DNA of 64,000 bases, taken from positions 77,005 through 141,004 of the forward strand of contig NZ_JACHHI010000002.1 of assembly GCF_014207605.1 (NCBI RefSeq), written 5' to 3'. The stretch is from Negativicoccus succinicivorans (GTDB taxonomy: Bacteria; Bacillota; Negativicutes; Veillonellales; Negativicoccaceae). Positions 14,778 through 35,802 of the stretch are shown here, one piece after another. The number at the start of each line of letters is the position of its first letter. Position 1 is the stretch's first letter. Made by a program: the position numbers and the translations under genes. Below the pieces are notes generated by a model, which was given only the letters and a program-made list of their open reading frames with translations, was not told the DNA's origin and did no database searches.

Positions 14778-14794
14778 CAGTCCAACACCAAAAA

Positions 14795-15009
14795 GCAATG
14801 ACCGGGACCAAATTTTTCGGCAAGGAACTTTTCAGAGAGCAGACGTTCGGTGCGAGTCTGCAAGTCAGTCGGGAAAGATTACATCACTCGTGAGCTTTCG
14901 TCATGAATGAAGTAGTGACGAACGTCGCCGGCGTTAACGGAATGAGAGATAAACCAGGGTGGTACCGCGTAACTACGCCCCTGCAGAGATATTTTCTGCG
15001 GGGGTTTTT
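14795..15009 (+). promoter_or_regulatory. T-box riboswitch, copy 1 (Tyr specifier predicted)
   Basis: Contains the stem I distal motifs (AGAGAG at about 14834, GGTGCGAG), the specifier region GAT-TAC-ATC (TAC at 14880-14882) and the 14-nt T-box AGGGTGGTACCGCG (14956-14969). A CCCCTGCAG/CTGCGGGGG terminator with a T run ends at 15009. Its stem II (TTCGTCA/TGACGAA) is the same as in copy 2. Confidence 0.92.
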
Positions 15010-15028
15010 AAGTACCGCCAATCAAAAG

Positions 15029-15243
15029 GCAATGACCGGGACTAAATTTTTCGGCAAAGAACTTTTCAGAGAGCAGACGTTCGGTGCGAGTCTGCAAGTC
15101 AGTCGGAAAAGAATACATCACCCGTGAGCTTTCGTCATGAATGAAGTAGTGACGAACGTCGCCGGCGTTAACGGACCGAGTAATAAACCAGGGTGGTACC
15201 GCGTAACTACGCCCCTGCAGGGATATTTCCTGCGGGGGTTTTT
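15029..15243 (+). promoter_or_regulatory. T-box riboswitch, copy 2 (Tyr specifier predicted)
   Basis: 234 bp downstream of copy 1. The specifier region is GAA-TAC-ATC (TAC at 15114-15116), the T-box sequence is at 15190-15203, and a terminator with GCAGGGATATTTCCTGC at its top ends at 15243. The GAT-to-GAA change next to the codon leaves TAC intact and gives the canonical GAA-NNN-A context. Confidence 0.92.
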
Positions 15244-31326: not shown

Positions 31327-33276
31327 TTAGGCATTTACCTGTTTGCGACCGCGTTGCCATTGCAGGAAGAACAGAGCGGCGAGGAGAACGATGCCGATGA
31401 TGTCGGTCGTTGCCCCCGTATCGATCATGCACAGACCGCCGATTATGAAGAGAATGCGTTCCCATGCTTTCTCTTTGACGACGAAGTGACCGATCATCGC
31501 GGAGCTGATCGCGACCATGCCGATGATGGAAGTGAGCAGCACCATGAGAATTTTAGGAATCGTCGTATCAATCATCAACATCGCGGGTGAGTTGACGAAA
31601 ATATACGGAATCAGGAACGCGGCGATCGCGAGCTTCGAAGCCTGCACGCCGGTGCGCAACGCGTTACCGCCCGCAATCGCCGAACCCGCGTACGCGGCCA
31701 GCGCGACCGGAGGCGTCACGTCGGCGACAATGCCGAAGTAAAAGACGAACATATGCGCCGCGAGTACCGGTACGCCGAGTTGTACCAGCGCCGGCGCGGC
31801 AATCGTCGAAGTAATGACGTAGTTCGCCGTCGTCGGGACACCCATGCCCAAGACGAGTGAAGTCAGCATCGTGAAGAAAAGCACGGCGAGGAAAACGCCG
31901 CCCGAGAGATCGATCAAGGCGGAGGCCATCTTCAAACCGATACCGGTTTTGGTGACCACGCCGATGATAATACCTGCCGCCGCGCACGCCGCGAGCACGG
32001 AAAGCATGTTGCGCGCGCCGTCGATCAGACCCTGCACAACTTCAATGAATGAGAGCCGCGTGTTTTTGCGGAGCATCGCCGCCGCGACCGTCAGGAAAAT
32101 ACCGATCAACGCGGCGCGCATCGGCGTATAGCCGCTGACCAAAAGACCGATGATAACGACCAGCGGTAATGCCAAGTGACCACGCTCACGGAAGATCACG
32201 CCGAATTTCGGCAGACTTTCCCGCGGCAAGCCTTGCAGATTTTCCCGCCGCGCTTCGAAATGAACGCCGAGCCAAATACCGAGGAAGTATAAAATCGCCG
32301 GGATTGTCGCCGCTTTGACGACTTCCATGTACGGTACGCCGACAAATTCCGCCATCAGGAACGCCGCCGCGCCCATGATCGGCGGCATCAACTGCCCGCC
32401 GGTGGAAGCGGCTGCCTCGACCGCGCCGGCGAAGTCGCGGTGGTAGCCGAGTTTTTTCATCATCGGGATCGTAAATGAACCGGTTCCGGCGACGTTGGCG
32501 ACGGACGAGCCCGATACCGTGCCCATCAAGCCGCTCGACAGCACGGCGACTTTCGCCGGACCGCCGCGCGCCCAGCCGGCGACGGCATTCGCCAAATCAA
32601 TAAAGAAGTGACCGAGCCCCGTCGACTCCAAATAGGCGCCGAACAAAATAAAGAGAAAAATAAAAGTACTCGAAACGCCCAACGGAATCCCGAAAATACC
32701 TTCGGTCGTAAAATACAAATGGCCGACGAGTTGGTCCCAGTTCACGCCGCGATGTCCTAAAATGCCGGGGATATACGGACCGGCAAAGGCGTAGGCGATG
32801 AAAAACAGCACCACCGACACCATCGGGATGCCGACCACGCGCCGCGCCGCTTCAATGACGAGCAGCACGCCGATTGAGCCGACCGCCATGTCCAGCGTAT
32901 TGAAATTGCCCGCTCGCAATACTAAATCATGATACTGCGTGATGATGTACAAAGGACCGCTTGCCGCGAGCAGCGCTAAAAACGCGTCCAGCGGATGAAT
33001 GCTGGTGCGATTCAGCCAGGTCTTGCGCGTCGGATATAAGAGAAACACCAGCACCAATCCGAAACCTAAATGCACCGCGCGTTGTAATTGCGCGTCAAGT
33101 ACACCGAAAATACCTGTATATAATTGAAACAGAGAAAAACAGATCGCGATGAAAGAAATGAGTTTTGCGATGTGACCGCGATATTGCGCCACGCGATTTT
33201 CTTTTTCCAGCGCCATGACCGCCTCTTGCGACACGGCGTCATCTTGTTTTGAACGAACCTTACGTTCTTCTGCCAT
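31327..33276 (-). CDS. TRAP-TAXI transporter fused permease (4TM-12TM)
   Basis: 649 aa membrane protein with about 16 segments in which the small (DctQ-like) and large (DctM-like) TRAP permeases are fused, typical of TAXI systems. Visible are SGSSVANVAGTGSFTIPMMKKLGY and GGQLMPPIMGAAAFLMAE, conserved in this family, and a second repeat around GMGVPTTANYVITS. AGGAGG at good spacing supports the ATG at 33276; a GTG nine bases upstream overlaps that site. It overlaps the DUF1850 gene by 17 bp. It moves the ligand caught by the TAXI binding protein with a Na+ or H+ gradient. Confidence 0.93.
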   Translation of the reverse strand: MAEERKVRSKQDDAVSQEAVMALEKENRVAQYRGHIAKLISFIAICFSLFQLYTGIFGVLDAQLQRAVHLGFGLVLVFLLYPTRKTWLNRTSIHPLDAFLALLAASGPLYIITQYHDLVLRAGNFNTLDMAVGSIGVLLVIEAARRVVGIPMVSVVLFFIAYAFAGPYIPGILGHRGVNWDQLVGHLYFTTEGIFGIPLGVSSTFIFLFILFGAYLESTGLGHFFIDLANAVAGWARGGPAKVAVLSSGLMGTVSGSSVANVAGTGSFTIPMMKKLGYHRDFAGAVEAAASTGGQLMPPIMGAAAFLMAEFVGVPYMEVVKAATIPAILYFLGIWLGVHFEARRENLQGLPRESLPKFGVIFRERGHLALPLVVIIGLLVSGYTPMRAALIGIFLTVAAAMLRKNTRLSFIEVVQGLIDGARNMLSVLAACAAAGIIIGVVTKTGIGLKMASALIDLSGGVFLAVLFFTMLTSLVLGMGVPTTANYVITSTIAAPALVQLGVPVLAAHMFVFYFGIVADVTPPVALAAYAGSAIAGGNALRTGVQASKLAIAAFLIPYIFVNSPAMLMIDTTIPKILMVLLTSIIGMVAISSAMIGHFVVKEKAWERILFIIGGLCMIDTGATTDIIGIVLLAALFFLQWQRGRKQVNA

Positions 33277-33802
33277 TTCTCTCACCTCCTAACCAATGGT
33301 TGAAATGCTCATAGTAGCTGCGCCAGCGCGGGGTGACGGACAATGTCACCAATGTGCCCGGCGCATGTCGTTGATACAGCGCGTACGTCGTTTGCAACGT
33401 AACGGTAAGTTCCGTCCCCAAACCCGTCCGTAACGTCAGCGGGCGGGGCAGAACCCGGTTAATATCATCCAAATAAAAATACTCGCCGTCGCTTCGAAAA
33501 TTACCTTCACTCGGCAAAAAAGGCAAACCCACGTCGTAGGATTTGTACTTGGTTGCCCGCAAAATAAAACCGTCCGCGGTATCATTTACCGTCAAATATT
33601 CCCAGACGTGGGTCTGCTGGACCGAATGCCGATAATGAATAACGACGGAGCGTCCGCTGTACGCATGACCCAAGTCATGCCATTCGTCGCCCGCCGTCAG
33701 AAAAATCGCCGGCCGCATCGACCACCAAGCGATCGTCACCACCAAAGCAAAGCTCAACAATGCCAATAGGTAGAACGGTCGCTTGATGAGTAAGCGTTGC
33801 AA
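33260..33802 (-). CDS. DUF1850 protein of the TRAP-TAXI operon
   Basis: 180 aa with one N-terminal membrane segment (about 10-28) and an extracytoplasmic beta-rich domain (WEYLTVNDTADGFILRATKYKSYDVGLPF). DUF1850 proteins sit almost always beside TAXI-type TRAP genes, as here between the binding protein and the fused permease. The start is TTG at 33802 behind AAGGAGA, directly adjoining the binding-protein stop. The role is unknown, perhaps assembly or docking. Confidence 0.85.
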   Translation of the reverse strand: MQRLLIKRPFYLLALLSFALVVTIAWWSMRPAIFLTAGDEWHDLGHAYSGRSVVIHYRHSVQQTHVWEYLTVNDTADGFILRATKYKSYDVGLPFLPSEGNFRSDGEYFYLDDINRVLPRPLTLRTGLGTELTVTLQTTYALYQRHAPGTLVTLSVTPRWRSYYEHFNHWLGGERNGRRT

Positions 33803-34765
33803 TTATTTCTCCTTAAAGAATTTTTCCGCCCCGGCGTTCATCGGAATCGACATGCCGTCCTGCGCGGCGTCTTTGGTAATCATCTTGCCGACCGCGTGGG
33901 CCGCGGCCATCTTGTCGAGATTCGTGTAAATGGCTTTGGTAACGTTGTAGCCCATTTCATCGGAGAGTTTACTTGTTGTCGCGATCATCGCGCGTACCGA
34001 GACGGCCAGCGTATCGCCGGCTACGCCATTATACGTACCTGCCGGAATGGAAATCTTAGTATAGTACGGATATTTTTGCAAGAGCTGGTCGGCCACCGCC
34101 GCATCAAGTGAAATAAGGGAAATCTGATTCGATACCGCCAAATCCTGGATGGCGGCTGTCGGGAAACCGGCCGTGACGAATGCGACATCGACATTACCGT
34201 CTTTGAGCGCGCCGGCCGCTTCACCGAACGAGAGGTATTGCACTTGGATATCGCTGTATTCAATGCCTGCGGCGTTCAAAATTTGCCGCGCGTTCGCTTC
34301 CGTGCCGGAACCTGCCGCGCCGACCGCTACGCGTTTGCCGCGCAAATCATTTATCGATTTGATGCCGGATTTTTCCAACGCTACGATCTGTACCGTTTCC
34401 GGATACAGCGTCGCTATGCCGCGCAGGTTGTCAACTTTTTTGCCGTCAAACATTTCCAGGCCGTTCGCCGCATAGTAGGCGATATCGTTTTGGATCAGCG
34501 CCAAATCCAGCGAGCCGTCTTTGAGCATATTGACGTTGGCGACAGAGGCCCCGGTGCTTTGCGCGGACGCATTGACATTGGCGATATTTTTATTGAATAA
34601 CTCCGCCATCGCACCGCCCAGCGGGTAGTAAGTACCTGCCGTGCCGCCCGTGCCGATATTCAAATATTGCTGTTTGGCACCGCCCGAACCGCCGCAACCG
34701 GCTAACGCGACTACCGCGGAAAGACCGGCGGCCATCATCAATGTCGTCATTTTGGAAAACTTCAT
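33803..34765 (-). CDS. TRAP-TAXI solute-binding lipoprotein
   Basis: 320 aa with a lipoprotein signal (VVALAGC lipobox at about residues 15-21), then the TAXI-family fold: LNIGTGGTAGTYYPLGGAMAEL, an ASVANVNML segment and GKRVAVGAAGSGTEANAR. The ligand is often glutamate-like or another carboxylate in this family but cannot be read. AGAGAGG supports the ATG at 34765; longer upstream readings run through the leader RNA and are not used. It is first in the three-gene operon. Confidence 0.93.
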   Translation of the reverse strand: MKFSKMTTLMMAAGLSAVVALAGCGGSGGAKQQYLNIGTGGTAGTYYPLGGAMAELFNKNIANVNASAQSTGASVANVNMLKDGSLDLALIQNDIAYYAANGLEMFDGKKVDNLRGIATLYPETVQIVALEKSGIKSINDLRGKRVAVGAAGSGTEANARQILNAAGIEYSDIQVQYLSFGEAAGALKDGNVDVAFVTAGFPTAAIQDLAVSNQISLISLDAAVADQLLQKYPYYTKISIPAGTYNGVAGDTLAVSVRAMIATTSKLSDEMGYNVTKAIYTNLDKMAAAHAVGKMITKDAAQDGMSIPMNAGAEKFFKEK

Positions 34766-34802
34766 TTTGATCATCCTCTCTTGGTTTGTGGGGTTTCGGC
34801 AA

Positions 34803-34824
34803 TAAAAAAAGGAGCTTACGCTCC
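34803..34824 (-). terminator. Leader terminator before the TRAP operon
   Basis: On the minus strand GGAGC, GTAA loop, GCTCC and seven T, about 40 bp before the binding-protein start codon. Termination inside a 5' leader implies attenuation. Confidence 0.7.
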
Positions 34825-34921
34825 GAGCTGCGTTCAACGGCTCACTGAGCACGCCGACGCCATTGCCGACTCGATACCCCAAGGTACGAAATGTTAAGTT
34901 TTCGTTGCCAACTTTTTAATT
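34803..34921 (-). promoter_or_regulatory. Structured 5' leader of the TRAP operon, candidate riboswitch of unknown class
   Basis: About 120 nt from the predicted +1 to the leader terminator. It includes complementary pieces such as GCTCA/TGAGC nested in CGGC/GCCG, and ACC/GGGT near ACCTTGGGGTAT. It does not match any riboswitch core known to me. The layout (promoter, compact structured RNA, terminator, gene) is that of a transcription-attenuating riboswitch. Confidence 0.5.
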
Positions 34922-34927
34922 GCCATC

Positions 34928-34956
34928 ATTGTATCATTATCAAACGCAGGTTGCAA
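34928..34956 (-). promoter_or_regulatory. TRAP operon promoter
   Basis: Minus strand: TTGCAA (34956-34951), 17 bp, TACAAT (34933-34928). Confidence 0.7.
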
Positions 34957-35064
34957 CCGTAATGCGCATGAATTATGTATACAGTAAAATTTATCGTCGT
35001 AAAAGCGTGCAGGAACCATTATAACAATAAATAAAAATACCATTGACCAAATACTTGTCATCTA

Positions 35065-35106: not shown

Positions 35107-35182
35107 GCCGGCATAGCTCAGTTGGTAGAGCGGCGCATTCGTAATGCGTAGGTCGTAGGTTCAAGTCCTATTGCCGGCTCCA
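35107..35182 (+). tRNA. tRNA-Thr(CGT), CCA encoded
   Basis: Full cloverleaf: acceptor GCCGGCA/TGCCGGC, D-arm GCTC..GAGC, anticodon stem GCGCA/TGCGT with loop TTCGTAA (anticodon CGT), T-loop TTCAAGT, discriminator T, encoded CCA. It is the parent-like unit of the degenerate array that follows. Confidence 0.96.
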
Positions 35183-35193
35183 TATAAAAAGAG

Positions 35194-35224
35194 CACTCCC
35201 CGAGATTTTACGGGGAGTTTTTAT
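35194..35224 (+). terminator. tRNA-Thr terminator (T0)
   Basis: CTCCCCG/CGGGGAG stem with a T run. Variants of the same hairpin end every unit of the downstream array. Confidence 0.85.
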
Positions 35225-35227
35225 TTT

Positions 35228-35279
35228 AGAGCGGCGCGACGCAATGCACACGTAGGATCAAGTCCTATTGCCGGCTCCA
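35228..35279 (+). repeat. tRNA-Thr 3'-part remnant R1
   Basis: 52 nt aligning with the tRNA from the 3' side of the D-arm (AGAGCGGCGC) to the CCA. The anticodon arm is replaced by GACGCAATGCACACG and is four nucleotides shorter. T-loop GGATCAAGTCC is mutated; TGCCGGCTCCA is intact. Confidence 0.85.
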
Positions 35280-35290
35280 TAGCAAACCAA

Positions 35291-35318
35291 ACTCTCCGAG
35301 ACTTTTTGGAGGGTTTTT
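35291..35318 (+). terminator. Array terminator T1
   Basis: CTCTCCGAG-type arm, loop, TTGGAGGG arm, T run. It is the weakest stem of the series. Confidence 0.6.
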
Positions 35319-35328
35319 ATTTCACTTT

Positions 35329-35380
35329 AGAGCGGCGCGACGCAATGCACACGTCGGTTCAAGTCCTATTGCCGGCTCCA
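35329..35380 (+). repeat. tRNA-Thr 3'-part remnant R2
   Basis: Same 52-nt layout, 101 bp after R1. The T-arm GGTTCAAGTCC is restored to the tRNA sequence, and TGCCGGCTCCA is intact. Confidence 0.85.
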
Positions 35381-35391
35381 CACAAAACATA

Positions 35392-35414
35392 ACTCTCCGT
35401 TTGGGGAGTTTTTT
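35392..35414 (+). terminator. Array terminator T2
   Basis: ACTCTCC/GGGGAGT hairpin with a run of six T. Confidence 0.7.
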
Positions 35415-35425
35415 ATTTCAAAACT

Positions 35426-35477
35426 AGAGCGACACAACGCAATGCACACGCAGGATCAAGTCGTATTGCCGGCTCCA
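35426..35477 (+). repeat. tRNA-Thr 3'-part remnant R3
   Basis: 97 bp after R2. It begins AGAGCGACACAACGC, the most diverged 5' part, and has GGATCAAGTCG in the T-arm region. TGCCGGCTCCA is intact. Confidence 0.85.
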
Positions 35478-35488
35478 TAGTAAAATGA

Positions 35489-35515
35489 ACTCTCCGCTTT
35501 AAGTGGGGAGTTTTT
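35489..35515 (+). terminator. Array terminator T3
   Basis: ACTCTCCGC/GTGGGGAGT hairpin with a T run. Confidence 0.7.
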
Positions 35516-35525
35516 ATTTTACTTT

Positions 35526-35577
35526 AGAACGGCGCCACGCAATGGACACGTAGGATCAAGTCGTATTGCCAGCTCCA
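35526..35577 (+). repeat. tRNA-Thr 3'-part remnant R4
   Basis: 100 bp after R3, starting AGAACGGCGCCACGC as in R5. The acceptor strand carries a change (TGCCAGCTCCA). Confidence 0.85.
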
Positions 35578-35588
35578 GATGAAATATA

Positions 35589-35616
35589 GCTCCCCGTTTT
35601 TTTGCGGGGAGTTTTT
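35589..35616 (+). terminator. Array terminator T4
   Basis: CTCCCCG/CGGGGAG hairpin with a T-rich loop and a T run. Confidence 0.8.
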
Positions 35617-35626
35617 ATTTTACTTT

Positions 35627-35678
35627 AGAACGGCGCCACGCAATGCACACGCAGGTTCAAGTCCTATTGCCGGCTCCA
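35627..35678 (+). repeat. tRNA-Thr 3'-part remnant R5
   Basis: 101 bp after R4. T-arm GGTTCAAGTCC and TGCCGGCTCCA are both intact, while the anticodon region carries the array-specific CGCAATGCACACG. Confidence 0.85.
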
Positions 35679-35689
35679 CACAAAAAATG

Positions 35690-35717
35690 ACTCCCCGTTT
35701 TTTGCGGGGAGTTTTTT
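35690..35717 (+). terminator. Array terminator T5
   Basis: ACTCCCCG/CGGGGAGT hairpin with six T, the last of the array. Confidence 0.8.
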
Positions 35718-35802
35718 ATTTTAGTACAGATGAAAATACAGATACAAAAATTTTCAGATAATATTCGATGATATTGAATAGTTTTTTTAAAAAATAATAT
35801 AG

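Follow-up and report, generated by a model that had tools for sequence, protein, structure and literature searches.

EutV, NasR and AmiR share a recognition element upstream of the leader terminator, namely a hairpin with A as the first and G as the fourth base of its hexaloop, hereafter A1/G4 (PMC3369931). In vivo, EutV requires both of its hexaloops (PMC3369931), and the minimal unit bound by an ANTAR dimer was described as a single hexaloop (PMC8934654). Here, we analysed a leader with one such hexaloop in front of a TAXI transporter operon of Negativicoccus succinicivorans; positions refer to the window, the whole 64,000-nt stretch of DNA that was analysed. On balance, we favour the view that this leader is an ANTAR-responsive attenuator which is off by default and opened by an antiterminator protein. 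As a second hexaloop was sought and not found, we class it as a variant working like the ANTAR family and do not count it among the canonical targets.

Operon layout and conservation of the leader

The initial annotation described a promoter followed by a structured leader, an intrinsic terminator and the binding-protein gene, and all of these elements were recovered (Table 1); they lie on the minus strand, which it had left unstated. Judging from the promoter, transcription would start near 34921, giving a leader of ~118 nt when counted through the end of the terminator. Although the terminator hairpin comprises only 5 bp, its stem and the U7 tract are invariant in 4 of 4 Negativicoccaceae species. 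No promoter-like match was found on the minus strand between the terminator and the TAXI gene, and thus the operon should depend on read-through. A leader peptide was considered and rejected: its candidate, a short ATG frame, is situated ahead of the inferred transcription start, shares positions with the -10 box and is missing in one of the related genera (g2, see below).

Elsewhere in the window, a tandem pair of T-box leaders occupies 14789-15219 (plus strand). A tRNA gene is located at 35107-35179, and a ~100-bp unit, consisting of the 3' part of this tRNA followed by a terminator-like hairpin, occurs in about five more copies at 35154-35721; among these tRNA-derived copies, the first alone scores as a tRNA.

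Table 1. Features of the TAXI operon, its leader and the associated putative operator sites.
Feature	Position	Strand	Basis or remark
TRAP permease, DctM-type	31327..33285	-	DUF3394 match below Pfam cut-off
DUF1850 protein of the TAXI operon	33260..33802	-	profile match
TAXI solute-binding protein (NMT1_3)	33803..34765, ATG 34765	-	Pfam E=5e-89
Intrinsic terminator GGAGC-GUAA-GCUCC (GGAGCGUAAGCUCC) + U7	34804..34824	-	sequence
Antiterminator region: helix GUGCUC/GAGCGU, the latter in the terminator 5' arm	34818..34852	-	predicted folds
Competing long helix (termination state): GCGUCGGCG with downstream CGUUG-A-ACGC	34830..34860	-	predicted folds
Hexaloop hairpin GUCGGC[AAUGGC]GUCGGC, loop A1 + G4	34853..34870	-	ANTAR-like putative recognition element
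P1 hairpin CGUACC-UUGG-GGUAUCG	34872..34888	-	without A1/G4 hexaloop
Sigma-70 type promoter TTGCAA-N17-TACAAT, extended -10 TG	34928..34956	-	sequence
TGTATACA palindrome upstream of the promoter	34976..34983	-	probable transcription-factor operator
Further TGTATACA sites (L204/L206)	G000:C3:254606-254773		
Further TGTATACA site (L202)	G000:C3:176569		

After TAXI orthologues had been gathered, four leaders were compared, originating from Negativicoccus (g1, two species) and from the genera g2 and g3, with Negativicoccus massiliensis as the nearest named genome. The covariance model R1 detected one copy per genome in these four Negativicoccaceae genomes (three genera), at 70-112 bits and always before the TAXI gene; the best unrelated matches scored 24 bits, and at E<=0.005 none occurred in 376 other Negativicutes. 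Likewise, no second leader copy was present in the N. succinicivorans genome and none on plasmids, while the 79 matches of the 18-nt core pattern in viral contigs were taken as chance. The structure is thus conserved in orthologous leaders, as the initial annotation had anticipated, and the search of Rfam 15 for which it had called returned no relevant match at the gathering cut-off and chance matches only at E<=10.

The folding energy of the whole leader surpassed 200 of 200 dinucleotide shuffles (z -3.1). Devoid of its terminator half, however, the leader had an ordinary folding energy (z -1.1), so that energy alone would not prove structure and the proof lies in conservation; the free-energy z-score was accordingly dropped as structural evidence, P1 together with P2 in the two Negativicoccus species giving z of about -0.4. 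Across the three genera, P1, the AGUCGRCAAYGGMGUCGGC block and the terminator are kept and most other leader sequence is scrambled, GUCGRC-AAYGGM-GUCGGC being the sole well-conserved block. An RNAalifold consensus, unprompted, consisted of P1, the hexaloop hairpin and the terminator. The P1 stem reads UAUGCC/GGCAUA and CAUACC/GGUAUG in the other genera; its candidacy as a second hexaloop was rejected because its loop has 4-5 nt. The hexaloop hairpin possesses six closing pairs including G.U wobbles, one of which is swapped for A-U in g2, and shows almost no covariation within Negativicoccaceae. A scan for A1/G4 hexaloops returned exactly one in each of the four leaders, and the second one that a canonical target, with its two hairpins joined by a short linker, would have was looked for in them without success.

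Hexaloop hairpins in relatives and the ANTAR regulator

An A1/G4 hexaloop located 20-60 nt before a T6 run was present in 15 of 17 Veillonellales TAXI leaders against ~0.09 expected, a count for which the loop pattern RA.G.. was partly picked after the sequences had been seen, A1/G4 itself being taken from the literature. Among 25 TAXI leaders of Acidaminococcaceae and other Negativicutes, none carried the combination of hexaloop and T6 run. The TAXI leaders of Dialisteraceae cannot be aligned in sequence with that of Negativicoccus; they extend from a promoter of the form TTTACA-N17-TATNAT, which mostly lies where the upstream gene ends, through to a terminator. In some of these genomes no space is left for a promoter after the terminator, which in L014 is located ~12 nt before the ribosome-binding site. 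Their hexaloops are of the GC-AAAGAA-GC type with the stems AAGC/GCUU, UUGC/GCAA and GCGC/GUGC, and this stem shows covariation (paired cells, 97% vs 20-36% when slid; score 0.653 vs 0.229 shuffled). When 16 leaders were pooled, 89% of cells were paired, with a covariation of 0.590 vs 0.221 shuffled. A TAXI leader of a Megasphaera-like genome (L006) carries GGC[AAGGGG]GCC overlapping the terminator arm.

Further targets were sought by pattern search and with a Dialisteraceae leader model, and some of the resulting matches are chance (coding sequence, bidirectional terminators). The candidates, each a short leader with one A1/G4 hexaloop and a terminator, include one before a DASS/Na_sulph_symp transporter of Dialister succinatiphilus (L260, G012:C2:587507), two before a Dpp/Opp-type permease and before a protein whose first 147 residues match no Pfam family (L261 and L265, both G014), and one before a Liv/Urt-type permease (L278, G029:C52:55263). 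In L261, L265 and L278, the hexaloop is situated inside the terminator 5' arm, like classic ANTAR P2 elements. Recurrence of the A1/G4 hexaloop in leaders that share no other sequence points to a docking site for a protein, namely an ANTAR protein.

One might instead take GTCGRC-N6-GTCGGC for an operator in the DNA, a direct repeat that follows the promoter, the hairpin being incidental. Many operators are direct repeats of this kind, with a period of 12 bp; nevertheless, we hold this reading to be highly improbable, since the G.U to A-U change of g2 preserves pairing in the RNA, and the Dialisteraceae hexaloops stay paired while their sequence changes, which identifies the hairpin and not the repeat as the shared element.

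An ANTAR protein above the Pfam cut-off was encoded in 61 of 61 Veillonellales genomes searched, mostly exactly one. Co-occurrence was nonetheless abandoned as a discriminating test, because most Acidaminococcaceae-type genomes tested carry an ANTAR protein too and near-universality in the class removes its power to discriminate. N. succinicivorans encodes one receiver-ANTAR response regulator, whose gene is overlapped by that of a HisKA_2/HWE kinase. This regulator is homologous over its full length to EutV (6wsh, E=6e-36), and at the seven EutV positions named as RNA contacts, K143, K147, R168, M172, N173, R175 and R177 (PMC8934654), it carries K, R, R, M, Q, G and K, respectively. BglG-type antiterminators (CAT_RBD) were absent from all 10 genomes searched, including that of N. 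succinicivorans, and 4 of 14 control genomes were positive.

Alternative folds and the proposed relay

In the N. succinicivorans leader, the hexaloop hairpin stops 29 nt short of the terminator. As the hexaloop of Negativicoccaceae lies clear of the terminator base, any effect on the terminator would have to be relayed by a competing helix. Predicted folds contain such a helix (Table 1), and this long helix and the hexaloop hairpin are mutually exclusive. By energy, the full-length leader prefers P1, the long helix and the terminator. When the hexaloop was forced before the 3' arm of the terminator had been made, upstream pairing of the 5' arm reached 0.93-1.0 in all species but g2, where it was 0.45, and the antiterminator dominated in three of the four species. 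With the 3' arm made, g3 stayed antiterminated and N. massiliensis was mixed, whereas the N. succinicivorans-like leader and g2 reverted to the terminator, so that kinetic order would matter. Calculated in this way, terminator and antiterminator exclude each other strongly in g3 and N. massiliensis and more weakly in N. succinicivorans and g2. The predicted antiterminator of g3 is a 10-bp helix, GUUCCUUGCG/CGUAAGGAGC, and that of N. massiliensis is a long helix, while g2 has a weak one.

Based on these folds, we propose that without activated protein the second GUCGGC would pair downstream into the long helix and leave the GGAGC arm free, whereupon the terminator would form and transcription would stop before the TAXI gene. 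An activated ANTAR response regulator, presumably binding the hexaloop hairpin, would hold it in place; the downstream strand could then pair with the terminator 5' arm, and the operon would be transcribed by read-through. Probably, the signal reflects the status of nitrogen, glutamate or dicarboxylates.

In the read-through RNA, the segment that directly follows the U-tract, AUUGCCGAAACCCC, pairs back to the leader (34804-34895, minus strand); in g2, different segments, GGGAAAU/AUUUCCC, make an equivalent pairing.

Probable upstream operator, substrate and comparison with known systems

The palindrome TGTATACA occurs 26 times upstream of TAXI genes in Negativicutes, spanning several families, against 1.0 expected, and in the N. 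succinicivorans genome it also stands before a LivK-like binding protein and, at two sites, before an SDF dicarboxylate symporter. This distribution suggests a second control at the DNA level and an uptake regulon marked by TGTATACA sites; the palindrome is perhaps the operator of a GntR-type regulator. Regulation could then reside entirely in this operator, with a passive terminator that just lowers expression or is read through via general elongation factors. DNA-level control may suffice given that TGTATACA, with 26 loci, has an older origin and a broader distribution than the leader, and a hairpin of only 5 bp would suit such a passive role. We regard this as unlikely, however, because it explains neither why the hexaloop block is so strictly conserved nor why A1/G4 recurs in other families.

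Dialister, Succiniclasticum, Phascolarctobacterium and Negativicoccus are succinate-using genera, and many TAXI orthologues originate from them. The closest solved structures to the TAXI protein are themselves TAXI proteins, including a glutamate/glutamine-binding protein of Thermus and 8s4j, which we take to be V. cholerae GluP. In the Negativicoccus protein, the motifs GTYYP and IQND correspond by alignment to the regions that hold the Tyr and the Gln of the published glutamate site (PMC12344293). As far as sequence can tell, the substrate is possibly glutamate or dicarboxylates.

The initial annotation had interpreted the leader as a ligand-binding riboswitch, possibly sensing the transported solute, and this interpretation has lost ground, as the conserved core turned out to be a 6-bp hairpin with the hexaloop AAYGGM and the same A1/G4 loop appears in Dialisteraceae and Megasphaera-like leaders. 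In its most explicit form, P1 and the GUCGRCAAYGGMGUCGGC core would bind glutamate or another dicarboxylate and switch between antiterminator and terminator. The layout, a sequence-conserved core with variable flanks and the mutually exclusive folds would all fit, as would the solute-uptake genes downstream and a binding protein that keeps the Tyr and Gln which align to the region where V. cholerae GluP binds glutamate. Yet for an aptamer a plain 18-nt hairpin is small, loops of this type occur in otherwise unrelated leaders, some of them very short, and before unrelated transporters, and the leader is confined to one family and lacks Rfam similarity. Metabolite sensing by this core thus appears rather unlikely to us, and quite improbable is a new ligand-sensing class restricted to Negativicoccaceae and dedicated to the acid that is taken up, be it glutamate or another dicarboxylate, in which the A1/G4 hexaloop would be a coincidence or part of the aptamer.

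If our preferred reading of an ANTAR-responsive attenuator is true, single-hexaloop ANTAR attenuators would represent a working regulatory format in Veillonellales, which would answer whether single hexaloops function, a question left open by PMC8934654. It would also link an apparently near-universal EutVW-like two-component system of these gut and oral bacteria to how they take up dicarboxylates, amino acids and peptides, and would imply that ANTAR regulons are undercounted by dual-hairpin search models.

Among known systems, the transcription-terminating riboswitches of Rfam 15 resemble the locus in their succession of promoter, structured leader, terminator and transporter gene, and differ in that the leader matches none of them even at E<=10 and has a single small hairpin as its core. 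Like the attenuators of NasR/nasF and AmiR/amiE, the leader places an A1/G4 hexaloop hairpin upstream of its terminator (PMC3369931), but those have another hexaloop, formed at the base of the terminator, which was not found in the Negativicoccaceae leader. From the EutV/EutW-controlled eut leaders of Enterococcus faecalis it is set apart by having one hexaloop instead of two, by an intermediate helix through which the hexaloop would reach the terminator, and by a TAXI transporter as target in place of eut genes. Shared with these eut leaders, in turn, are the A1/G4 hexaloop on a stem of at least 3 bp with a terminator downstream (PMC3369931), and an ANTAR-domain response regulator encoded beside a histidine kinase, which in Negativicoccus is of the HisKA_2 type.
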